Shown one piece after another: positions 2,550 through 42,484 of a stretch of 43,741 nucleotides of DNA. The stretch comes from a virus. The position numbers were made by a program, and so were the translations under genes. The notes under the pieces are model-generated. The model was not told the origin of the DNA. It worked only from the letters and a program-made list of their open reading frames with translations, and did not search any database. Every line of letters starts with the position of its first letter. Within the stretch, counting starts at the first letter, position 1. Where the stretch lies: the IMG/VR virus record IMGVR_UViG_3300031512_000001, positions 1 through 43,741 of that record; one strand, written 5' to 3'.

Positions 2550-3950
2550 ATGATAGAATTAGAAGTAACTAATTTAGAAACTTTTATAAAGAATGCACCT
2601 ACTTTAGTTACTCAAATAATAGATGATGCTTTAGCAATAGAAGTTCCAGGTGCATTTTTTGCACGTAACAAGATTAATTATTTTTGGGATGGAAAGAAAC
2701 ACTTATTTTCAATTAAAAGAAAAGTTTTTCCTACTGGATGTATTCGCCGAGTGATAGATTTATTGAATAAGATGGGATACGAATTTAGGATAAATGATTT
2801 AAGGGAGAAACCAAAACTTGACAATAGACCCTTATACTTAAGAGCTCACCTTAGAGATTACCAAGAAGAAGCAATAGAAATTTTAACTCAAAAACAGAGA
2901 GGAATAATTCAGATTGCGACAGGAGGAGGAAAAAGCTTAATTTTAGCTGGTTTATGTTCTCGTTTAAATATTCCCACTTTAGTATTAGTTCATCGTCAAG
3001 AATTGATGTATCAATTAGAAGAAACTTTTAGGACAAATTTGCGTGGAAAAGGTTCTCGTAAGCCATTGATAGGTATAGTAGGAGATGGAAATGTTGAATG
3101 GGGACATATAACTATTGCGATGATGCAAGCTTTGGATGTTAAGAAATATGAAAAAGAATTAGACAAGGTAGAGATGGTTTTAGTAGATGAATGTCATCAT
3201 TTGCCGTGTAACACAATGGTAGAAATAATGAAACATTTGAAGAATGCTTATTTTAGATTTGGAGTTTCAGCAACAAGTTTTAGAGAGGATGGAATGGATT
3301 TATTACTTGAAGCTTATTTAGCCCCCATATACTATAATCTTAGTATTAATGATTTAACTAAAATGGGTTATTTAGTTCCGGTTAAAGTTTTCTTTATTCC
3401 TTTTCATGATAATAGGATGTATAGGGATGATTTAACTTATAGTCAAATTTATGAAGAAGCAATTGAAAAGAACGAAAAGAGAAACAATTTGATTGTGGAA
3501 GCTGTAAAAAGAGTTTTAGCTACAGGTAAATCATGTTTGGTTGCAGTATCTAGAGTAGATCATGGGAAAATACTAACTCAAAAGATTAAATCTTTTTATC
3601 CTGAGGTAGAGTTTGTGGAAGGTAGTGATAAAAGTGAACGAAGAAAGAAGATTATTAAAAAGTTAAATTTAAAAGAGATTAGATGTGTTGTTTGCACTAC
3701 TGTTTTTGGTGAGGGGATTGATATTCCTACTTTAGATGTTCTCATTTCCGGCAAAGCTCAAGATAGTGGTATTGATGCTCTTCAATTAGCTGGGAGGGTG
3801 ACTAGAAAGGTTGATGGTAAGAATGAAGGATGGGTTATTGATATATTTGATTATCATCATAAATATTTTAAAAAGCATGCAATGAAGCGAAAGAAGATAT
3901 TTGAAGAAGTTAAGTTTGAAGTTAGAGAGGTAAAATGGAATTTACAATAA
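2550..3950 (+). CDS. Superfamily 2 DNA/RNA helicase (UvsW/XPB-like)
   Basis: This 466-residue protein is an ATP-dependent helicase or annealing helicase. It carries the ordered SF2 motifs: DYQ (103-105), Walker A ATGGGKS (123-129), DECHH (213-217), SAT (240-242), motif V TTVFGEGIDIP (383-393) and motif VI QLAGRVTRK (412-420). An N-terminal domain of about 95 residues precedes the motor. This layout matches phage UvsW-type helicases, which resolve branched DNA and restart forks. The start at 2550 is the first ATG after the repeat tract; no clear Shine-Dalgarno precedes it, so translation initiation is unusual. It overlaps the next gene by 16 bases. The specific UvsW role is inference from family. 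Confidence 0.88.
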   Translation: MIELEVTNLETFIKNAPTLVTQIIDDALAIEVPGAFFARNKINYFWDGKKHLFSIKRKVFPTGCIRRVIDLLNKMGYEFRINDLREKPKLDNRPLYLRAHLRDYQEEAIEILTQKQRGIIQIATGGGKSLILAGLCSRLNIPTLVLVHRQELMYQLEETFRTNLRGKGSRKPLIGIVGDGNVEWGHITIAMMQALDVKKYEKELDKVEMVLVDECHHLPCNTMVEIMKHLKNAYFRFGVSATSFREDGMDLLLEAYLAPIYYNLSINDLTKMGYLVPVKVFFIPFHDNRMYRDDLTYSQIYEEAIEKNEKRNNLIVEAVKRVLATGKSCLVAVSRVDHGKILTQKIKSFYPEVEFVEGSDKSERRKKIIKKLNLKEIRCVVCTTVFGEGIDIPTLDVLISGKAQDSGIDALQLAGRVTRKVDGKNEGWVIDIFDYHHKYFKKHAMKRKKIFEEVKFEVREVKWNLQ

Positions 3951-4186
3951 AAAATTTTGAAGATGAGATTTTATTTAAAAGTAATTCTTTGGATGATTTG
4001 ATTCCTTTAAATATTGAAGGTAGATTGGTTGTGGATGATTATGAAGTATGTTATATTTATACATTTGATTCAATTTCAGTTAGGGAGATATTAAAAGTGA
4101 TTAAAAGTAAAATAAAAAATGTTGGAGTTAGGAAATATAATTTGGAAAAAGAAATGAAATTATTGCAACTTTTTGAAACATTATAG
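3935..4186 (+). CDS. Hypothetical small protein
   Basis: This 83-residue protein starts inside the end of the helicase gene with AGAGAGG shortly upstream of its ATG. It is acidic in the first half and basic in the second, with an alternating pattern that fits a small alpha/beta fold (FTIKNFEDEILFKSNSL). No motif is recognised. The coupling suggests co-expression with the helicase. A copy of the recurrent upstream motif begins directly after its stop codon. Confidence 0.6.
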   Translation: MEFTIKNFEDEILFKSNSLDDLIPLNIEGRLVVDDYEVCYIYTFDSISVREILKVIKSKIKNVGVRKYNLEKEMKLLQLFETL

Positions 4187-4203
4187 TTTGTAAGGTTTGA
4201 TTT
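4187..4203 (+). promoter_or_regulatory. Recurrent motif copy 1 (TTTGT-N6-TGATTT)
   Basis: TTTGTAAGGTTTGATTT lies between the stop at 4186 and the start of the repeat-protein array at 4220, followed by ATTATAGTAG. It matches copies at 6487, 29278 and 42468. If TATAGT acted as a -10 box the transcript would begin close to the ATG, giving an almost leaderless message; only a weak AGAG is seen as a ribosome binding site. Promoter function is inferred. Confidence 0.5.
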
Positions 4204-4219
4204 ATTATAGTAGAGAAAT

Positions 4220-4747
4220 ATGAATATAAGTGATTTATTAAAAAATCCTAGTAAAGCAAAAATGGTTTTGAATGAATCTATTATTAAAAAAAATAAAGAA
4301 TTAGCAGAAATGTTAATTCCAATTGTTAAACATCCATATTTAACTTATATTTATGCCAAAGAAATAGTTAGAGGTAAAATTAAAGACGAATGGGAGGAGA
4401 TTATAGTCCAAGATCCATATGCTTCCCTTGATTATGCACAGCATGTTTTACGTAGACCCTTTCCTAAAGGAGAGGATACAATAGCTCAAAATCCATGTAC
4501 TTCTTTTGATTATGCTTATAAAGTTTTAAAAGGTTCTTTTCCTAAAGGAGAGAATGCAATTGCTTCTTTGGCTTCTTATTCTTATTATTATGCTCAAGAT
4601 GTTTTAAAAGACAGATTTGAAAAAGGTGAGGAAACTATTATTAAAGATAAGTATTATTTAGATAAATATGTAGAATTTCTTGAAAAGATTGGTAAATTAG
4701 ATGAATTTTTAAAAGATCATCTTGGAGTAGAAAAATGGATATCTTAG
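4220..4747 (+). CDS. Helical-repeat protein, array member 1
   Basis: This 175-residue protein is the first of seven related genes. A conserved head (LLKNPSKAK) is followed by a segment on Lys/Glu-rich helices (KNKELAEMLIPIVK), then repeats of the type YAxxVLxxPFPKGEDxIA about every 34 residues, and a C-terminal cap (FLEKIGKLDEFLKDHLGVEKW). Each repeat looks like a pair of helices, so the whole should form an alpha-solenoid used for binding. Similar YA..V..G...E repeats occur in proteins of other phages with unknown role. The stop is 13 bases inside the next gene. It lies just downstream of recurrent-motif copy 1. Function unknown. Confidence 0.78.
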   Translation: MNISDLLKNPSKAKMVLNESIIKKNKELAEMLIPIVKHPYLTYIYAKEIVRGKIKDEWEEIIVQDPYASLDYAQHVLRRPFPKGEDTIAQNPCTSFDYAYKVLKGSFPKGENAIASLASYSYYYAQDVLKDRFEKGEETIIKDKYYLDKYVEFLEKIGKLDEFLKDHLGVEKWIS

Positions 4748-5301
4748 ATTTGTTAAAAAATCCTAGTAAAGCAAAGATAGTTTTGGAAGATGCTATTTAT
4801 GAAAAAAATAAAGAATTAGCAGAAATGTTAATTCCGGTAGTAAGAGATCCATGGTTAACTTGTAAGTATGCCCAAATTATAGCCAAAGATAAGATTAAAG
4901 ACGAGTGGGAGGAGATTATTGCTCAAAATCCAGCTACTTCTTTTAATTATGCCAATTACGTTTTAAAAGGACCTTTCTCTAAAGGAGAGGATACTCTATC
5001 CAAGCATTCGTATTATGCTTTTTTGTATGCACGAGATGTTTTAAAAAGTCCTTTTCCTAAAGGAGAGGATGCAATTGCAACAGAAGCTCCTTTTGCATTA
5101 TCTTATGCTAAAAATGTTTTAAATGATAGATTTAAAAAAGGAGAAGAGGCAATTATTAGGAGTGAAATTGAAAATCCTGATAATGATTGGGGTGGCGATG
5201 GAGAATCTTGTTTTACTTCGTATGTTAATTTTTTAAGGTCGATAGATAAGTTAGACGAATTTTTAAAAGATTATCCAGAAGTAGAAAAATGGATATCTTA
5301 G
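4735..5301 (+). CDS. Helical-repeat protein, array member 2
   Basis: The 188-residue product shares head, repeats and cap with member 1. Three or so repeat units are visible (YANYVLKGPFSKGED, YARDVLKSPFPKGED, YAKNVLNDRFKKGEE). It has an acidic Gly/Asp insertion (about residues 145-153) before the C-terminal cap. The gene begins inside the previous one: the same 13 bases (ATGGATATCTTAG) encode the end of member 1 and the start of member 2, and the same arrangement recurs at the member 2/3 junction. This shows that the unit was copied together with its overlap. GGAGTAG upstream of the ATG serves as ribosome binding site. Confidence 0.78.
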   Translation: MDILDLLKNPSKAKIVLEDAIYEKNKELAEMLIPVVRDPWLTCKYAQIIAKDKIKDEWEEIIAQNPATSFNYANYVLKGPFSKGEDTLSKHSYYAFLYARDVLKSPFPKGEDAIATEAPFALSYAKNVLNDRFKKGEEAIIRSEIENPDNDWGGDGESCFTSYVNFLRSIDKLDEFLKDYPEVEKWIS

Positions 5302-5990
5302 ATTTGTTAAAAAATCCATCTAAAGCTAAAAGTTTATTAGAAAAAGTACTTGAAAATGGAAATAAAAAATTAACTGAAATTTTAATTCCCATAGCTAAAG
5401 ATCCTCATTTGACTTATAGATATGCATTAAAAATAATTAAAGGTAAAATTAAAGACGAATGGGAAGATATAATAGCTAAAGATTCTTTTAGTTCTTATAA
5501 TTATGCACTTTATGTTTTAAATGGACCCTTTTTAAGAGGGGAAGATGTTATTAGTAAAAATGCAGTTTTTTCATATAAGTATGCTAAAGAAGTTTTAGAA
5601 AGACCTTTTCCAAAGGGAGAGGATGCTATTAGTAAAGATGATAATTTTTCATATGAGTATGCTAAAGAGATTTTAAAAGGTCCCTTTCTTAAAGGAGAAG
5701 ATACTATTGCTAAAGATTCGTATTCAGCTTATCGATATGCTCGTTATGTTTTACATAAACCATTTCCTAAAGGAGAAGATGCTATTGCTAAATCTGCAAT
5801 TTTTTCTTATTATTATGCAAAAGATGTATTACATGATAGATTTCCAAAAGGCGAAAAAGCAATTATGGATAGTGAAGGTCAAATAGAAGAATATGAATCA
5901 GTAGATTATTTAACGTTGTATATTGAATTTTTGAAATCAATAAATAAATTAGATGAATTTTTAAAAGATCATTTGGAGGTGAAATTATGA
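5289..5990 (+). CDS. Helical-repeat protein, array member 3 (longest repeat run)
   Basis: At 233 residues this is the member with the most consecutive repeats. After the LLKNPSKAK head and the KGKIKDEWEDIIAKD segment there are about five units with the YA..VL..PFPKGED pattern, ending in YYYAKDVLHDRFPKGEKAI and the capping stretch LTLYIEFLKSINKLDEFLKD. Bases 5769-5866 are identical to 7883-7980 in member 6, showing recent duplication or conversion. The length differences between members are whole repeats. It overlaps member 2 by 13 bases and member 4 by 4 bases. No enzymatic motif is seen. Confidence 0.78.
   Translation: MDILDLLKNPSKAKSLLEKVLENGNKKLTEILIPIAKDPHLTYRYALKIIKGKIKDEWEDIIAKDSFSSYNYALYVLNGPFLRGEDVISKNAVFSYKYAKEVLERPFPKGEDAISKDDNFSYEYAKEILKGPFLKGEDTIAKDSYSAYRYARYVLHKPFPKGEDAIAKSAIFSYYYAKDVLHDRFPKGEKAIMDSEGQIEEYESVDYLTLYIEFLKSINKLDEFLKDHLEVKL
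5769..5866. repeat. 98-base exact repeat, copy 1
   Basis: Bases 5769-5866 match 7883-7980 exactly over 98 bases; the last part is also found exactly at 8467-8528 (62 bases). The repeat encodes the final repeat unit of three array members. The rest of these genes has diverged, so the identity points to recent duplication or gene conversion between paralogs. Confidence 0.85.
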
Positions 5991-6478
5991 ATATAGGTGA
6001 TTTATTGAAAAATCCAGAAAAATTAAATAAAGTGTTTGAAAATCTTTTGATGAATGATGAATATGATGAGGCAGAAAAACTTTTACCTTTTGTGACTAGT
6101 TCTAGATTGCTAATTAATTATGCTTTTCATACTAAAAAAAGATTGTCACCCCAATATGAAGGTAAGGTATTTAAAGATTTTGTTTCTCTTGATCCTCATA
6201 TGGATTTGGATCCACATGATGTTTTAGAATATATTGATTTTGTAAGAGAAAGATTTCCAAAATTAGAACCAACTATATTTGAGTTAGGTAATCCTTATTT
6301 TAGAAAATATTATGGAATTTTAAAATTAATTGGAAAAGATGATGAGTTTCTTAAAGATCATCCAGAGAAAATAAGAGATGCATTTGAAGTAGAGCTTTAT
6401 AATGCTTACGAAGAAGGGGATAATAGCGAATTAGAAAAGTTTTTGAAAAAGTATCCAGAGTATAGAAAATTTGTTTAA
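5987..6478 (+). CDS. Array member 4, divergent helical protein
   Basis: The 163-residue protein keeps the family head (MNIGDLLKNPEKLNK) and a C-terminal cap-like segment (GILKLIGKDDEFLKDHPEK), but its middle has lost the clear PFPKGED repeats; only YIDFVRERFPKLEP remains recognisable. It is therefore a diverged paralog. GGAGGTG just before the ATG is a good ribosome binding site. The start overlaps the preceding stop (ATGA). It closes the first half of the array; a 77-base gap with recurrent-motif copy 2 follows. Confidence 0.72.
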   Translation: MNIGDLLKNPEKLNKVFENLLMNDEYDEAEKLLPFVTSSRLLINYAFHTKKRLSPQYEGKVFKDFVSLDPHMDLDPHDVLEYIDFVRERFPKLEPTIFELGNPYFRKYYGILKLIGKDDEFLKDHPEKIRDAFEVELYNAYEEGDNSELEKFLKKYPEYRKFV

Positions 6479-6486
6479 GTTTTGGG

Positions 6487-6503
6487 TTTGTCGATATTGA
6501 TTT
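6487..6503 (+). promoter_or_regulatory. Recurrent motif copy 2 (TTTGT-N6-TGATTT)
   Basis: TTTGTCGATATTGATTT lies in the 77-base gap between array members 4 and 5 and differs from the copy at 42468 by a single base over 17 positions. It is followed by TTCTTATGA and, 52 bases later, by the start of member 5 with AAAAGGAG. Placement in one of the few real intergenic gaps supports a promoter or operator. Confidence 0.55.
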
Positions 6504-6555
6504 TTCTTATGAAAAAGATAGAAAATGAAATAAATATTGATAAAAGGAGAATAAT

Positions 6556-7551
6556 ATGACGCCAGAAATGGAATTTGCAGAAGCGCTTAAAAATAAAAAT
6601 AAAGAAGTAGCAGATAGTTTAATTGAACAAAATTTAATAGGTAATCCAGATTTATTATTGAAGTATGCATTAATGTTTAATCAACGTCTTCCACAATCTG
6701 TTGAATTTATAGTATTAGTAAATCCTTATTATGCTTGGGAATATATTTCAAAAGCAGTAAAAGATAGAGTTCCTGAGGCTGAGGAAATTATAAAACAAGA
6801 TCCTTATATATATCAACTCTATATCAACTTTTTGAAAAAGATTGGTAAATATGATGAATTTATGGAAGATCAAGGGTCGGATCAAAAACAAGATCAAATT
6901 GAAGATGAAAGAAAGATTGAAATATCTGATCTTTTAAAGAACCCTGAAAAATTAAATGATTTTTTTAGTAAGGCAGTAGATAGAGGAAATAAAGAGTTAG
7001 CAGATTTACTTCTTCCCCATGTTCTACCTATTCTTTATTATGAGTATGTAGATAAGCTTGGAGAAAGAGTTCCAATTAAATTTGAATCTAAATTATTTGA
7101 TTCAACCTTTTCTGCACCTGAAAAGTATTTAGAATATGTTATAGAGAAAGGAAAATATAATTCTTTTCTTAAAGATTGGGGAGATACTTATATAAATGAA
7201 ATAGTTAAGGTAATAGCTAACTTTTTTAGTTATAATCCATTAATAGAACATTTAGTTAGAACTAATAAAGAATGGGTAGATCAAGTTATTTTACCTCTTT
7301 TTAATTATGATTTTGATAGAACAAGTAGGGAGTGGGGAGTATTATTGGTTGTTCTTTTATCCACATATGATTATAAATTACCTTCTAGAATATTATCTAA
7401 GTTGAGTAGAGAGGATTTAGAAGCGGTAAAAGAGTATTTAGATGATTATGAGCAAATATTAATTGATAGAGAAGGAGATAGTTATGTAGAAGATTCATAT
7501 AATGCTATTAATGAAGCTTATAAATATTTGAGAAAAAATTTAAGGAGGTAA
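6556..7551 (+). CDS. Array member 5, two-module helical protein
   Basis: This 331-residue protein looks like a fusion of two diverged units. Residues 1-110 carry repeat-like helices (YALMFNQRLPQSVEF, YISKAVKDRVPEAEE) and a cap (FLKKIGKYDEFME). A linker rich in Asp, Gln and Glu (about 106-120) leads to a second head (ISDLLKNPEKLND) and RGNKELADLLLPHV helices. The C-terminal 130 residues are helical but no longer match the repeat. The PEAEE variant resembles the widespread phage repeat with G-R-W-P-E-A-E. AAAAGGAG precedes the ATG. Function unknown; likely a binding scaffold. Confidence 0.72.
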   Translation: MTPEMEFAEALKNKNKEVADSLIEQNLIGNPDLLLKYALMFNQRLPQSVEFIVLVNPYYAWEYISKAVKDRVPEAEEIIKQDPYIYQLYINFLKKIGKYDEFMEDQGSDQKQDQIEDERKIEISDLLKNPEKLNDFFSKAVDRGNKELADLLLPHVLPILYYEYVDKLGERVPIKFESKLFDSTFSAPEKYLEYVIEKGKYNSFLKDWGDTYINEIVKVIANFFSYNPLIEHLVRTNKEWVDQVILPLFNYDFDRTSREWGVLLVVLLSTYDYKLPSRILSKLSREDLEAVKEYLDDYEQILIDREGDSYVEDSYNAINEAYKYLRKNLRR

Positions 7552-7555
7552 AATT

Positions 7556-8122
7556 ATGAATATAGGTGACATATTAAAAGATGTTAATAAAGTAAAAAGT
7601 TTTTTGGAAAAATTAATTGATGATAAAAAAAATAAAGATTTGGTAGAAATTTTAATTCCGATTGTTAAACATTCAGATTTAACTTATAATTATGCTAAAA
7701 AAATAGTTAAAGATAAAGTTAAAGACGAATGGGAAGATATAATAGTCCAAGACTCTCTCAGTTCTTATAATTATGCAATGACTGTTTTAAATGGACCTTT
7801 TCCAAAAGGAGAAGACGTAATTGCTACCAATCCATATACTGCTTATAATTATGCCAGAAATGTATTAAAAGGTAGATTTGAAAAAGGAGAAGATGCTATT
7901 GCTAAATCTGCAATTTTTTCTTATTATTATGCAAAAGATGTATTACATGATAGATTTCCAAAAGGCGAAAAAGCAATTATTAGTAGTAAGGTTAAGCCAT
8001 CAACTAGTGATCTTTTAGAAGATGATGAATTTGTTTTGGATGCGTATATTGAATTTTTAAAGTCAATAGGTAAGTTAAATGAATTCTTAAGGGCTCATCC
8101 TGAGGTAAAGGAATGGATATAG
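7556..8122 (+). CDS. Helical-repeat protein, array member 6
   Basis: This 188-residue protein has the head MNIGDILKDVNKVK, the KDKVKDEWEDIIVQD segment and three clear repeats (YAMTVLNGPFPKGED, YARNVLKGRFEKGED, YYAKDVLHDRFPKGEK), then an acidic insertion and the cap FLKSIGKLNEFLRAHPEVKEW. Its last repeat is identical in DNA to that of member 3. AAGGAGG precedes the ATG, four bases after the previous stop. It overlaps member 7 by 10 bases in the same ATGGATAT arrangement seen between earlier members. Confidence 0.77.
   Translation: MNIGDILKDVNKVKSFLEKLIDDKKNKDLVEILIPIVKHSDLTYNYAKKIVKDKVKDEWEDIIVQDSLSSYNYAMTVLNGPFPKGEDVIATNPYTAYNYARNVLKGRFEKGEDAIAKSAIFSYYYAKDVLHDRFPKGEKAIISSKVKPSTSDLLEDDEFVLDAYIEFLKSIGKLNEFLRAHPEVKEWI
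7883..7980. repeat. 98-base exact repeat, copy 2
   Basis: This copy is identical to 5769-5866. It encodes the C-terminal repeat of array member 6. A 62-base portion recurs at 8467-8528 in member 7. See copy 1 for interpretation. Confidence 0.85.
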
Positions 8123-8655
8123 GAAGTTTATTAAAGGGGGGAGGAGTAGATAGAGCTTTTAACAATGCATTAAGAGAAAAAAATAGAGAATTAGCTGATT
8201 TTTTAATTAAGTATATAAAAGATCCTTTTCTTCTTTTAGATTATGCTCTTGTTTTTAATGAAAAGTTAAAGCCAGAATTTGAAGATATTATTGCTAAAGA
8301 TAAAGATGCTTCTCTTGGATATGCTGTAGATGTTTTAGAAGGTCCTTTTCCTAAAGGTGAAGATGTAATGGCACAAGATTTGTATACTGCCTATCATTAT
8401 GCAGCTGATGCTTTAAAAGGTCCTTTTCCTAAAGGTGAACCTATAATTTCTCAATTCCCATATTCCTCTTATTATTATGCAAAAGATGTATTACATGATA
8501 GATTTCCAAAAGGCGAAAAAGCAATTATTGATAGTAAAGGTCGTGTATGGGAATATGAAACTGATGACTATTTGACTTTGTATGTGGAATTTTTGAAATC
8601 AATAAATAAATTAGACGAATTTTTAAAAGATCATCCTGAAGTTAAAATTAATTAA
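8113..8655 (+). CDS. Helical-repeat protein, array member 7
   Basis: The 180-residue protein has a modified head (MDIGSLLKGGG) and then follows the family plan: RELADFLIKYIKDP helices, repeats YAVDVLEGPFPKGED, YAADALKGPFPKGEP and YYYAKDVLHDRFPKGEK, and the cap LTLYVEFLKSINKLDEFLKD, which is nearly the same as that of member 3. A G-run (GGGGGGAGG) in codons 8-11 reflects the altered head. It is the last gene of the array; a 90-base gap separates it from the DnaB-like helicase. No catalytic motif is seen. Confidence 0.77.
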   Translation: MDIGSLLKGGGVDRAFNNALREKNRELADFLIKYIKDPFLLLDYALVFNEKLKPEFEDIIAKDKDASLGYAVDVLEGPFPKGEDVMAQDLYTAYHYAADALKGPFPKGEPIISQFPYSSYYYAKDVLHDRFPKGEKAIIDSKGRVWEYETDDYLTLYVEFLKSINKLDEFLKDHPEVKIN

Positions 8656-8745
8656 CTCTTCTTAAATTAATTTTCTTTTTTCTTAGTCGGGGTAAATTCT
8701 TTTTTATTTTTTTGTATAAATAGAAAAGATTTGAGGAGAAAAGAT

Positions 8746-10110
8746 ATGAATGTAGAAAAGAATTTTATAAAGAAATTACTTTCTAATTCTAATTTTTTAG
8801 ATAGAGCTTTATTTAGAGGAATTGATTCAAGTTTTTTCATAGAGCCTTCCTATTCATGGTTGGTTGAAGTTATTATTTGGTTTTACGCTAAGTATAAAAC
8901 CTTACCTACTAAAGAAGATCTTAAATCTATTGTGGAATCTTCTACAAAATTGGATGATTTTAGAAAGCAAGATATTTTGATTGTTTTAGAAGATTTATTT
9001 AATGGAGAAGAAGTTACTTCAGATTTTAATTTTTTATTAGATTTTTTAGTAAGTCATTATCAAGAAAATCAATTAAAAATGCTTTTGTTTTCTGCTTCAT
9101 CTAAGTTAAGAGATGGAAAAAGAGGAGTATTAGAGGAATTGAAAGAAAGATTGATCGAATTAGAAAATAAAGTTAATTTTAAGGGAGATGAGGTTGATTT
9201 AGGAAAAGATTCATTAAATAGAATAGTTAGATATCAAGAGGGAAAAGTTGACAATACTAGAGGAGTAGAAATTGGTTTTCCAACATTAGATTATTTAACT
9301 TGGGGTTTAAAAGAAGGATGGGTTGTAGTTGTTTTGGGAGCTAATAAATCAGGGAAGAGTGTATTTCTTTTAAATTCAGCCATAAACGCTTATTTAAAAG
9401 GAAAAAATGTATTATTTATTTCTTTAGAAATACCAAAAGACCAGGTTATCTATAGATATGATTCTTGTAGAAGTGGAATTGCTTATGATAAATTAGTAAG
9501 AGGATTATGTTCTCCAGATGAATTGGAAGTATTAAAAAGAATATTAGAAGAAGATTCAAAAAGAGATAATATTTTTTATGTTGTAGATATTGTTAATTTT
9601 TCTGCTCATACACTTTATAGTTTAGTTAAGAGATTATCATTTAAGCCTGATTTAGTTGTTATTGATTATATGGGATTAATGAAAACTAATTCAAAAAGTG
9701 AAAAAGCTTGGGAGGTTTATTCAAAAATTGGTTTGGAGTTAAGAGAGGTAGCTAGAAGTTTAAAGTTTCCAGTATTAACTGCCATGCAAGTGAATAGAGA
9801 AGCTTATAAGAATAATGAGAAAGATGTATATGGAGTTGAAGATATTGCATTATCTTTTTTGTTAACTTGTCATGTGGATTTAGTAATGTCTTTGAAAGTT
9901 TTAGATAGACAAGCTTTATATGAAAATAATAGTAATAATGGAGTTGAATTAGCCGCCACGATTGTTGCATCTAGAGTTAGTAGGGGAGGAAAGTTTTCAA
10001 TTTGGGCAGATTTTTCAAGAATGCATATGAAAGAATTTAGAATGGAAGTAAATAATGATAGTTCTAATGAAAATTCTTCAGTAAAAGCTTCAGAAACTAT
10101 AAAATGGTAA
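8746..10110 (+). CDS. dnaB: DnaB-like replicative DNA helicase
   Basis: This 454-residue protein unwinds DNA at the replication fork. It has an N-terminal helical domain, a linker, and a RecA-like motor starting with GVEIGFPTLDYLTWGLKEG, Walker A GANKSGKS (about 198-205) and Walker B LVVIDYMGLM (about 303-312), followed by the AMQVNR motif typical of DnaB/gp41 enzymes. Start chosen at ATG 8746 because GAGGAG lies at correct distance; a TTG at 8731 would include that site. Upstream is a 90-base AT-rich gap with TATAAATA at 8715. It begins the replication block and precedes queE. No helicase loader is recognised nearby. Confidence 0.92.
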   Translation: MNVEKNFIKKLLSNSNFLDRALFRGIDSSFFIEPSYSWLVEVIIWFYAKYKTLPTKEDLKSIVESSTKLDDFRKQDILIVLEDLFNGEEVTSDFNFLLDFLVSHYQENQLKMLLFSASSKLRDGKRGVLEELKERLIELENKVNFKGDEVDLGKDSLNRIVRYQEGKVDNTRGVEIGFPTLDYLTWGLKEGWVVVVLGANKSGKSVFLLNSAINAYLKGKNVLFISLEIPKDQVIYRYDSCRSGIAYDKLVRGLCSPDELEVLKRILEEDSKRDNIFYVVDIVNFSAHTLYSLVKRLSFKPDLVVIDYMGLMKTNSKSEKAWEVYSKIGLELREVARSLKFPVLTAMQVNREAYKNNEKDVYGVEDIALSFLLTCHVDLVMSLKVLDRQALYENNSNNGVELAATIVASRVSRGGKFSIWADFSRMHMKEFRMEVNNDSSNENSSVKASETIKW

Positions 10111-13267: not shown

Positions 13268-15232
13268 ATGGATAAGAGAGAAGATTTCAATAAGGTGTTA
13301 AAAAAGATTGAAGATTCTTATGGAGTAAGAATTAGAAAACTTGGAGACTTTAAAGAAAATATTGAGAGTATTCCTTCAGGTTCTCTTATTTTAGATGATA
13401 TTCTAGGTGTTGGAGGTTATCCTAGAGGAAGACTTGTGGAGGTATATGGGGAATTTAGTTCTGGGAAATGTATTTCTGCTAATTCTTATGTTTTTACTGA
13501 GAATGGATTGTTAGCTTTAAAAGAATTGAAACCTGATTTGAAGAAAAATGAGTATTCTAAATTTGAAATCTCTCTCTTAACTCAAAATGTAAATGCAAAA
13601 AGTAGTTATATATATAATGATGGTTTTAAAAGAAGTTTACGTATTTTTACTGAAAGTGGGTTTGAATTAATAGGTTCATTAGAAACTACAAAGATAATGG
13701 TTTTAAGAGAGAAAGGATTAGAGTGGGTTCCCCTTAATAAATTAAAAGTAGGAGATAAGATTTTATTGAGAGGAGGGGGATCCACTTTTGGAAAAACTAA
13801 AATTAAAAAGTCTTTAAAGCAGATTTACGAATGGGGAAAAACTTATGATAAAGATAAAGAATTTCCTCTTGAAATAAGAAAAGCTCCCAAAGAACAAGTA
13901 ATTGCTTTTTTAGGAGGTTTAATTGAGGCAAATGGTAATTTATATGAATCGTGTTTGTTTTTTTCTCTTCCTAAAGAGTGGATTAAAATAATTCAATTAT
14001 TTCTTTTGAATTTAGGAATTGTTTCATATAGAAAAAAATTAATAAAAAATGAGTTTGATACTCTTTTTATAATTAGATCAAATCTATTAGAATTTAAGAT
14101 TATTTTTAATAAATGGTGTAAGTTATGTAAAGATATAGTTGTTTCAAATAATGTAGAAATAATTCCTTATGGGCATAGAGTAATGGAATATTTTAAAAAG
14201 TCAATTAATAAAGATTATAAAATAGATTTATATAAAGAACATGCAAGTAGAGGGGAAGTGATTGATTTTCTTAAGTTATTTGAGAAATATAGATTCAATT
14301 CTCTTTATGTATTATTGAGGGGAATGGAGTTAGGAAATTATATTTTGGATGAAGTAAAAGAATTGGAAGTAATAGAAAAAGAAGAAGTGTGGGATTTAAC
14401 CGTACCTTTCTTTCATAATTTTGTTGCAAATGGAATTGTTGTGCATAATACATTATTAGGTTTATTAGGTATAGCTAGTGTTCAAAAATTAGGAGGTAGA
14501 GCTTTATTTATTGATGCTGAATATACTTTGGATTTAAAATGGGCAAAGACATTAGGAGTAAAAGTTGAAGATTTATATGTAGTGCAAGAAAATTGTTTGG
14601 AAAAAGTTATGAATATTTTAGAAAAGTTTTTAGAAGAATCTTTATTTGATTTGATTGTAGTTGATTCAGTAACTGCATTAGTTCCTCAAAAAGAGTTAGA
14701 AGGAGAAATGGAAGATCAAAATATAGCTCTACAAGCTCGATTAATGTCGCAAGCTTTAAGAAAATTAGTAGGTAAATTAAGTAAAAGTAAAGCAGTAGTT
14801 ATCTTTATAAATCAATTAAGGGATAATGTTGGAGTAATGTTTGGAGATCCTTCTACTACTCCGGGAGGACGTGCTTTAAAATTTTATTCTTCGGTTAGGA
14901 TTAAGGTTGGAAAAGAACCTGGAGGTGATATAAAAAAAGATAATGTGAAGATAGGTCATCGAATAAAATTTAAAGTTGAAAAAAATAAAGTAGCCACTCC
15001 CTTTAAAGAAGGAAGTACTTTGTTGTATTATAGTAAAGGAATTGATGCAGTTAGAGAGCTTTTAGAATATGGATTATCTAAAGAAGTAATTAAGTTAGGA
15101 GGAAATACTTATTCTTATAAAGATCATAAATGGGTAGGTTTTGATAAAATGCTAGATTTTTTTAAAAGTTCTCCTGAATTAATTGATGAACTTAAGAAAG
15201 ATTTAGGTTTATCTCATGTTAAAATTAGTTAA
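13268..15232 (+). CDS. recA: RecA recombinase interrupted by an intein
   Basis: The 654-residue precursor comprises RecA residues 1-67, a 327-residue intein (68-394) and RecA from Thr395 on; splicing would give a 327-residue RecA. The join restores Walker A GEFSSGKT, split between Lys67 and Thr395. After the intein come Walker B (LIVVDSVTALVP), loop 1 (around LEGEMEDQNIALQARLMSQA), the strand INQLRDNVGVMFG, and loop 2 region STTPGGRALKFYSSVR, all typical of bacterial RecA rather than T4 UvsX. RecA carries out strand exchange in recombination-dependent replication and repair. The C-terminal domain is short. The gene follows the SSB-like gene and overlaps the Rad50-like gene by 17 bases. Confidence 0.95.
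   Translation: MDKREDFNKVLKKIEDSYGVRIRKLGDFKENIESIPSGSLILDDILGVGGYPRGRLVEVYGEFSSGKCISANSYVFTENGLLALKELKPDLKKNEYSKFEISLLTQNVNAKSSYIYNDGFKRSLRIFTESGFELIGSLETTKIMVLREKGLEWVPLNKLKVGDKILLRGGGSTFGKTKIKKSLKQIYEWGKTYDKDKEFPLEIRKAPKEQVIAFLGGLIEANGNLYESCLFFSLPKEWIKIIQLFLLNLGIVSYRKKLIKNEFDTLFIIRSNLLEFKIIFNKWCKLCKDIVVSNNVEIIPYGHRVMEYFKKSINKDYKIDLYKEHASRGEVIDFLKLFEKYRFNSLYVLLRGMELGNYILDEVKELEVIEKEEVWDLTVPFFHNFVANGIVVHNTLLGLLGIASVQKLGGRALFIDAEYTLDLKWAKTLGVKVEDLYVVQENCLEKVMNILEKFLEESLFDLIVVDSVTALVPQKELEGEMEDQNIALQARLMSQALRKLVGKLSKSKAVVIFINQLRDNVGVMFGDPSTTPGGRALKFYSSVRIKVGKEPGGDIKKDNVKIGHRIKFKVEKNKVATPFKEGSTLLYYSKGIDAVRELLEYGLSKEVIKLGGNTYSYKDHKWVGFDKMLDFFKSSPELIDELKKDLGLSHVKIS
13469..14449 (+). other. Intein in the RecA P-loop, with degenerate endonuclease domain
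   Basis: The 327-residue insert starts with Cys (precursor residue 68) and ends in VVHN followed by extein Thr395, the classic splice junctions. Block A is CISANSYVFTENGLLALKEL; block F/G is VWDLTVPFFHNFVANGIVVHN in part. Block B, normally TxxH, reads ETTK, so the usual catalytic His is missing. A single recognisable LAGLIDADG-type motif reads LGGLIEANG, with Asn in place of the metal-binding Asp; the second motif is not evident. Homing endonuclease activity is therefore probably lost, while splicing should persist because RecA depends on it. Confidence 0.9.
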
Positions 15233-42467: not shown

Positions 42468-42484
42468 TTTGTCGATTTTGATTT
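42468..42484 (+). promoter_or_regulatory. Recurrent motif copy 4 (TTTGT-N6-TGATTT)
   Basis: TTTGTCGATTTTGATTT begins four bases after the portal stop, followed by CTTTAAATAG; the next gene starts 45 bases downstream with TTTAAGGAG. It differs at one position from copy 2. The spacing here allows a normal leader, consistent with promoter function for the protease/scaffold genes. Confidence 0.55.

Follow-up and report, generated by a model that had tools for sequence, protein, structure and literature searches.

Alpha-solenoid families serve in protein binding elsewhere. The ankyrin, TPR, Sel1, LRV, HEAT and DUF4116 families resemble the proteins described here in having stacked two-helix units, a conserved core and a variable surface. 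Poxviruses and giant viruses carry lineage-specific sets of ankyrin-repeat genes that differ between relatives, and in phage T4 the genes for internal proteins IPI-IPIII change fast and share a common N-terminal segment. Solenoid repeat proteins and variable sets of viral solenoid genes are a known kind. Here we describe seven consecutive genes at positions 4220-8655 of IMG/VR record IMGVR_UViG_3300031512_000001, a tailed-phage fragment of 43,741 bp that is called the window below. We regard it as probable, with some reserve, that this locus is a recombining tandem repertoire of variable-face, protein-binding alpha-solenoids whose partners are most plausibly host proteins.

The locus differs from each of the described systems. 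The ankyrin families of poxviruses and giant viruses use another repeat and belong to eukaryotic viruses rather than to a phage. T4-type internal proteins are packaged in the head and cleaved by the prohead protease, whereas the window proteins are known here from their genes alone. Among 50,697 cultured-phage records a single one matched, that of Salicola phage SCTP-2. PHROG 28193 (unknown function), the only PHROGs family matched by array gene 3 (E 5e-11), and SCTP-2 gp435 carry one or two copies of the same 26-residue repeat (41% identity by tblastn). However, gp435 is a single 648-amino-acid protein with a domain termed WC here and long unrelated regions, and there is no tandem array of repeat paralogs. 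No description of the repeat, its phage-wide arrays or its association with WC turned up in the databases and literature searched; the literature search for such repeats or tandem arrays returned nothing relevant.

Array proteins share a 26-residue repeat and a predicted solenoid fold

The seven open reading frames (ORFs) lie in a row on the plus strand, with short overlaps or short gaps between neighbors (Table 1). Members have a head (MNIxDLLKNPxKAK...), repeats of the form YAxxVLxxPFPKGEDxIA and a cap (FLKxINKLDEFLKDHPEVK) in common. Gene 3 matched other members with E-values down to 1e-47, and genes 1, 2, 3, 6 and 7 were 49-68% identical in pairwise comparisons. An earlier reading of the locus from its letters alone (the sequence-only reading) had proposed seven consecutive paralogs with varying repeat number, and both proposals were borne out: genes 1, 2, 3, 6 and 7 hold 3, 3, 5, 3 and 3 canonical copies, respectively, and gene 5 holds one. 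Genes 4 and 5 fit the paralog family in part only, in agreement with the suggestion that they are decayed or fused. No repeat was recognizable in gene 4, and in gene 5 two degenerate modules have been fused.

The repeat had been taken to span 34 residues, and this figure must be revised to 26. Self-comparison of genes 1, 2, 3, 6 and 7 gave a peak at offset 26 (no such peak was seen in genes 4 and 5), repeat copies are spaced by 78 nt in the DNA, and helices recur every 26 residues in an AlphaFold2 model of gene 3. This model, built on 22 family members, is all-helical and confident (mean predicted local distance difference test score (pLDDT) 95.4; predicted template modeling score 0.88), and it is a solenoid, as the sequence-only reading had expected. 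Judged by the model, the array proteins belong to the alpha-solenoid structural class, with helix pairs recurring along the chain. The last part of the head, as modeled, is itself a degenerate repeat, with helices 39-50 and 56-62 showing the helix A and helix B pattern.

Array content changes between conserved flanks, with sequence exchange among genes

We compared the locus with that of a relative, IMG/VR contig UViG_3300031463_000001 (124,898 bp), referred to as G001; loci L010, L011, L015 and L017 belong to it. G001 is colinear with the window across the helicase, an 83-amino-acid gene, DnaB, QueE, primase and RecA, at approximately 75-81% nucleotide identity. Between the same two helicases, however, G001 has five array genes and a remnant against seven genes in the window. 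Core proteins of the two phages were 73-81% identical, with a ratio of nonsynonymous to synonymous divergence (dN/dS) of 0.11-0.26; the primase was dropped from this comparison, as its dN/dS of 2.44 conflicts with its own 74% identity and is most likely an alignment-index artifact. The 83-amino-acid gene was 65% identical (dN/dS 0.24). The best array matches were 53-61% identical, with dN/dS of 0.29-0.67, except for gene 7, which was 76% identical to L017:4085-4609 (dN/dS 0.24) and was the sole member with a supported G001 orthologue in a tree of heads. Since dN/dS stayed below 1, the array proteins are still constrained. The conserved flanks and the differing gene number and content indicate that the array is remodeled while its location stays the same. 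The sequence-only reading had called the array fast-changing, and unchanged conservation in the relative was not seen.

Array genes also share identical blocks (Table 1). Outside these, approximately 40-50% of synonymous sites differ among genes 3, 6 and 7; the 98-bp identity between genes 3 and 6 shows recent sequence exchange. Blocks of 41-64 bp occur within and between the arrays of G001, including one of 53 bp shared by arrays approximately 45 kb apart on the contig. A third contig, UViG_3300035181_001867 (85 kb), has 393 pairs of identical stretches, each 40 bp or longer, inside its own array.

One face of helix A varies across lineages

In the repeat alignment, positions 7, 8, 12, 16, 20 and 23 were invariant or nearly so; conservation of the core residues was strict in every lineage. 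The most variable positions in most lineages were 2, 3, 6, 9 and 10, all within helix A (positions 1-12). Their i/i+3/i+4 spacing would place them on one helix face in the predicted fold. Entropy profiles of the window plus G001 agreed with those of four other sets (Spearman 0.69-0.93). Positions 3 and 6 are large hydrophobic or aromatic in 52-93% of cases, though variable and predicted to be exposed, which is suggestive in that such positions are typical of protein interfaces. An exposed variable face that recurs across lineages is what proteins with a variable binding partner would be expected to show, the type to which the sequence-only reading had assigned the array.

The repeat is widespread in environmental phages

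The wider family became visible only when the repeat itself, not the whole protein, served as query. The repeat was found in unrelated phage contigs, among them a 341-kb phage with several clusters, contigs of 18 kb and 64 kb and further contigs. In IMG/VR, 63 DNA stretches encode GRWPEAEP or its Ser/Arg-codon variants, and a repeat hidden Markov model (HMM) detected 196 repeat ORFs in the loci examined, several of these overlapping on shared contigs. As far as these matches show, the 26-residue repeat occurs in dozens of IMG/VR contigs, often as tandem paralogs. Tandem paralogs recur across lineages, each with different heads. The longest array has 27 genes in a row over approximately 18 kb in UViG_3300035181_001867, after removal of locus overlaps, and G001 has 57 family matches in several clusters. 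In cultured-phage records the repeat is nearly absent.

A second domain accompanies the repeat in other phages

The WC domain has the consensus EASCxxGxGTxWCTxxxxxxFxxYxxxxPLYxxxxxxGxKYQF, in which T-x-W-C-T and a Tyr further downstream are invariant. It is fused ahead of the repeats in seven ORFs on six contigs, and five further ORFs carry it unfused on the same strand near repeat genes (gaps of 0, 4, 4, 128 and 1372 nt). All 12 WC ORFs of the examined loci were thus linked to repeats; of that DNA, 41% is no more than 1.5 kb from a repeat gene. The association was seen at eleven loci outside the window and in Salicola gp435. WC matched no Pfam family and only unknown-function PHROGs families. 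Its predicted model is alpha/beta and of moderate confidence (pLDDT 81), and no match to it was found among PDB folds. WC is not confined to one type of helical repeat: in Salicola gp45 its fusion partner is a set of DUF4116 repeats. The same phage has a cluster of WC paralogs with differing C-terminal parts, one with DUF4116 repeats (L096:3648-8689); its proteins gp435, gp45, gp46 and gp48 have WC or repeat modules.

Homologues of WC occur in Pseudomonas jumbo phages. For one of them, EST35_0205 of phage PA5oct, the annotation reads structural protein, electrospray ionization tandem mass spectrometry, i.e. detected in virions. It adjoins a gene that reads as terminase large subunit and is so annotated in the related phage Cassandra. 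An annotated virion-associated domain offers a concrete and testable entry point to the family. The WC HMM found no WC in the window (a 44-kb fragment) or in G001, so the WC link is not transferable to the window array. A candidate noticed by eye in the G001 array protein L017:4606-5796 (SWCVKDLEYAEFY...LYFVLKNG) was rejected, as it had no HMM support and an hhalign E-value of 0.39; this segment resembles only a segment in L011:7176-10001.

Function of the array and alternative explanations

In the mechanism that we favor, each protein joins a head to 26-residue helix-loop-helix repeats, which vary in number, and to a C-terminal cap, and the conserved residues form the solenoid core. The exposed helix-A face (positions 2, 3, 6, 9 and 10) would most likely contact other proteins and carry specificity. 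Neighbors swap repeat modules, and duplication, loss and fusion also reshape the array, while the flanking replication genes stay. Turnover would be adaptive, and its likely benefit would be a continued supply of new binding surfaces as partners change, the partners being most plausibly host proteins, including those of defense. A host-takeover or anti-defense role, as the sequence-only reading put forward, would be a guess.

In favor of this proposal, the ratio of nonsynonymous to synonymous differences (pN/pS) at positions 2, 3, 6, 9 and 10 exceeded that of the rest in G001 (1.17 vs 0.53) and in UViG_3300035181_001867 (1.67 vs 1.18). Several observations weigh against it. The ratio at these positions was below 1 in G002 and L027, and the contrast was taken from divergent, mutually exchanging repeats at positions first noticed in overlapping data. 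Because exposed solenoid faces are always more variable and divergence here is high, face entropy and pN/pS are only suggestive. The isoelectric point of members is 4.8-6.3 in the window and 8.5-9.1 in some other lineages, so no shared ligand chemistry is evident. PADLOC profiles matched none of five array members (PADLOC does not model counter-defense proteins as such), and arrays also adjoin structural genes.

The array products might instead be virion-associated or injected accessory proteins that, like the T4 internal proteins, are packaged and, when the phage enters the cell, act or dock an effector. We think this unlikely, yet it is a live rival because a G001 array lies beside tail-sheath genes (directly upstream of the sheath gene itself) and WC is annotated as virion-associated in PA5oct. 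In other phages, repeats are fused to WC or stand beside it, with four of the five unfused WC ORFs within 128 nt on the same strand, and in another phage two repeat-gene copies lie by baseplate-like genes. But the mass spectrometry annotation concerns the WC protein and not a repeat protein, no WC was detectable in the window or in G001, the window array sits in the replication region, and the repeat genes of another phage lie beside nucleotide-metabolism-type genes. Packaging and a binding repertoire are compatible, and both could hold.

A role as scaffold or adaptor for the phage's own replication or transcription machinery, with variation tracking co-evolution of phage partners, would fit the position between two helicases. 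It would also fit the fusion of G001 head and repeat modules to an RNA polymerase alpha C-terminal-domain-like domain, the head-like segment before ChaB and the repeats that follow a nucleotidyltransferase domain elsewhere. A scaffold of conserved partners should itself be conserved, however; the flanking replication proteins change slowly while the array turns over, and other arrays are not near replication genes, which makes this account improbable. If a recombination-prone family simply duplicated and decayed in a largely neutral way, each copy having little selected function, this would explain the decayed genes 4 and 5, the interrupted copies in G001 and the frequent identical blocks. This account seems to us very improbable, given that intact ORFs with ordered overlaps make up most of the copies, that dN/dS is below 1, that the core residues hold in every lineage and that large arrays persist in unrelated phages. 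If the variable face of the favored binding repertoire does contact host proteins, the arrays would supply new phage inhibitors and serve as a natural scaffold for work on how recombination generates viral binding diversity. A broader picture, in which environmental phages, many of them large, combine recombining solenoid arrays that vary on one face with, in many cases, a constant virion-packaged WC partner, the repertoire tracking host defenses or receptors, is speculative and rather doubtful at present.

Database comparisons and rejected candidates

Apart from the HTH_35 artifact described below, no Pfam family matched, and in a scan of all seven genes ankyrin, TPR, Sel1, HEAT and LRV gave nothing above cut-off. 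A link to DUF4116 was rejected: window members gave no Pfam match to it, and hhalign against the Salicola gp45 repeats gave an E-value of 0.66. Sequence searches of the PDB returned E-values of 0.07 or worse, and Foldseek found nothing better than 0.2 in the PDB for the gene 3 model. Against a viral library the best Foldseek match was an unnamed protein of 648 amino acids (E 2.6e-3), a length equal to that of Salicola gp435. The whole-protein profile (A1) found nothing in bacterial and archaeal genomes and recovered only the relative G001 among viral contigs. A consensus-repeat query had no match in GenBank phages.

Gene 3 reached a summed score of 25.2 (cut-off 25) for HTH_35 (PF13693), a Ner-like winged helix-turn-helix family. 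Per repeat, only about 18 residues resemble the model (18 of 75 positions), and no single stretch passes. This match is a repeat-summing artifact, because 18-residue partial matches are summed over the repeats and the predicted structure is a solenoid; it could mislead automated annotation. A single protein elsewhere, L090:2030-4273, has 20 copies of the 26-amino-acid repeat and scores 37.1 bits for HTH_35 (cut-off 25) by such summed partial matches, so automated Pfam annotation would assign it to that family. Nucleic-acid-reading repeats (TALE, PPR and PUF, with units of 34-36 residues) were excluded by the period of 26 and the acidic members (isoelectric points as given above for the window).

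Genomic context and upstream motif

The window has approximately 25% G+C and encodes portal, large terminase, DNA polymerase, ribonucleotide reductase, DnaB, QueE and RecA-like proteins. The array was said to lie between two helicase genes, and it does, between a superfamily 2 (SF2)-type and a DnaB-like helicase, but the 83-amino-acid gene precedes it. The unique C-terminal domain of gene 5 (approximately 7087-7551) is homologous to L017:2563-3018 of G001.

Table 1. Features of the array locus and its flanks in the window.
Feature	Position	Strand	Remark
Left flank, SF2-type DNA helicase (PHROG 16)	2550..3950	+	conserved in relative
83-aa (amino acid) gene, helicase-to-array interval	3935..4186	+	conserved in relative
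Degraded TTTGTCGATWTTGATTT copy just upstream of array	4187..4210	+	sequence read; relative has one-mismatch copy there
Array gene 1, 175 aa	4220..4747	+	head, 3 x 26-aa repeats, cap
Array gene 2, 188 aa	4735..5301	+	head, 3 repeats, acidic insert, cap
Array gene 3, 233 aa	5289..5990	+	head, 5 repeats, cap; AlphaFold2 solenoid
98-bp block in gene 3, identical to 7883-7980	5769..5866	+	last repeat region
Array gene 4, 163 aa	5987..6478	+	head, cap-like segment, unrecognizably diverged repeats, extra C-terminal segment
Motif TTTGTCGATATTGATTTTTCT in gap before gene 5	6487..6507	+	
Array gene 5, 331 aa	6556..7551	+	truncated head + 1 repeat + cap, second head, unique C-terminal domain
Array gene 6, 188 aa	7556..8122	+	head, 3 repeats, acidic insert, cap
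98-bp block copy in gene 6	7883..7980	+	last repeat region
Array gene 7, 180 aa	8113..8655	+	degenerate head, 3 repeats, cap
63-bp gene 7 stretch identical to gene 6 7919-7981	8467..8529	+	62 bp shared with gene 3, from 5805
Right flank, DnaB-like replicative helicase	8731..10110	+	conserved in relative

One or two copies of a recurrent motif had been placed upstream of array genes. The copy before gene 5 stands, as TTTGTCGATWTTGATTT is exact at 6487 and again at 42468; the one at the array start is degraded. The longer 21-mer form, with up to 3 mismatches, has 4 sites in the window against 0.19 expected. Further TTTGTCGATWTTGATTT sites are at 1831 (minus strand) in the window and at L010:16900 and 17173 in G001, where the one-mismatch copy directly before the array is at L017:2348. 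The motif is possibly a phage promoter or regulatory site. It does not indicate early expression, as had been suggested, because the copy at 42468 follows the portal gene and precedes the gene after it. At 2340-2460, upstream of the helicase, a 25-nt A+T-rich direct repeat (AACTAAAGATATAAGATTAAAGATT) occurs three times in non-coding DNA of the window, a possible origin or regulatory region.

Other genes of the family loci

Some repeat or head-like segments are joined to other domains. In G001, L015:3054-3863 has the RNA polymerase domain mentioned above (PF03118, E 5e-9) flanked by head-like and repeat modules, and L011:2988-3323 has its ChaB domain after a head-like N-terminus. The 942-amino-acid protein L011:7176-10001 has a C-terminal archaeo-eukaryotic primase-like domain just below cut-off. 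Elsewhere, the 738-amino-acid protein L045:8874-11087 has a nucleotidyltransferase domain (Polbeta, E 3e-6) followed by 26-amino-acid repeats and looks multi-domain. A TnpB-like transposon protein was read by eye near a family array of G001 (L010:14323-15435).

The RecA-like gene (window 13268-15232; L017:10352-12310) has a large P-loop insert with intein-like ends in both phages, those in G001 being SSGK/CVSA...VVHN/T. Most phage RecA genes align with this gene at its two ends only.

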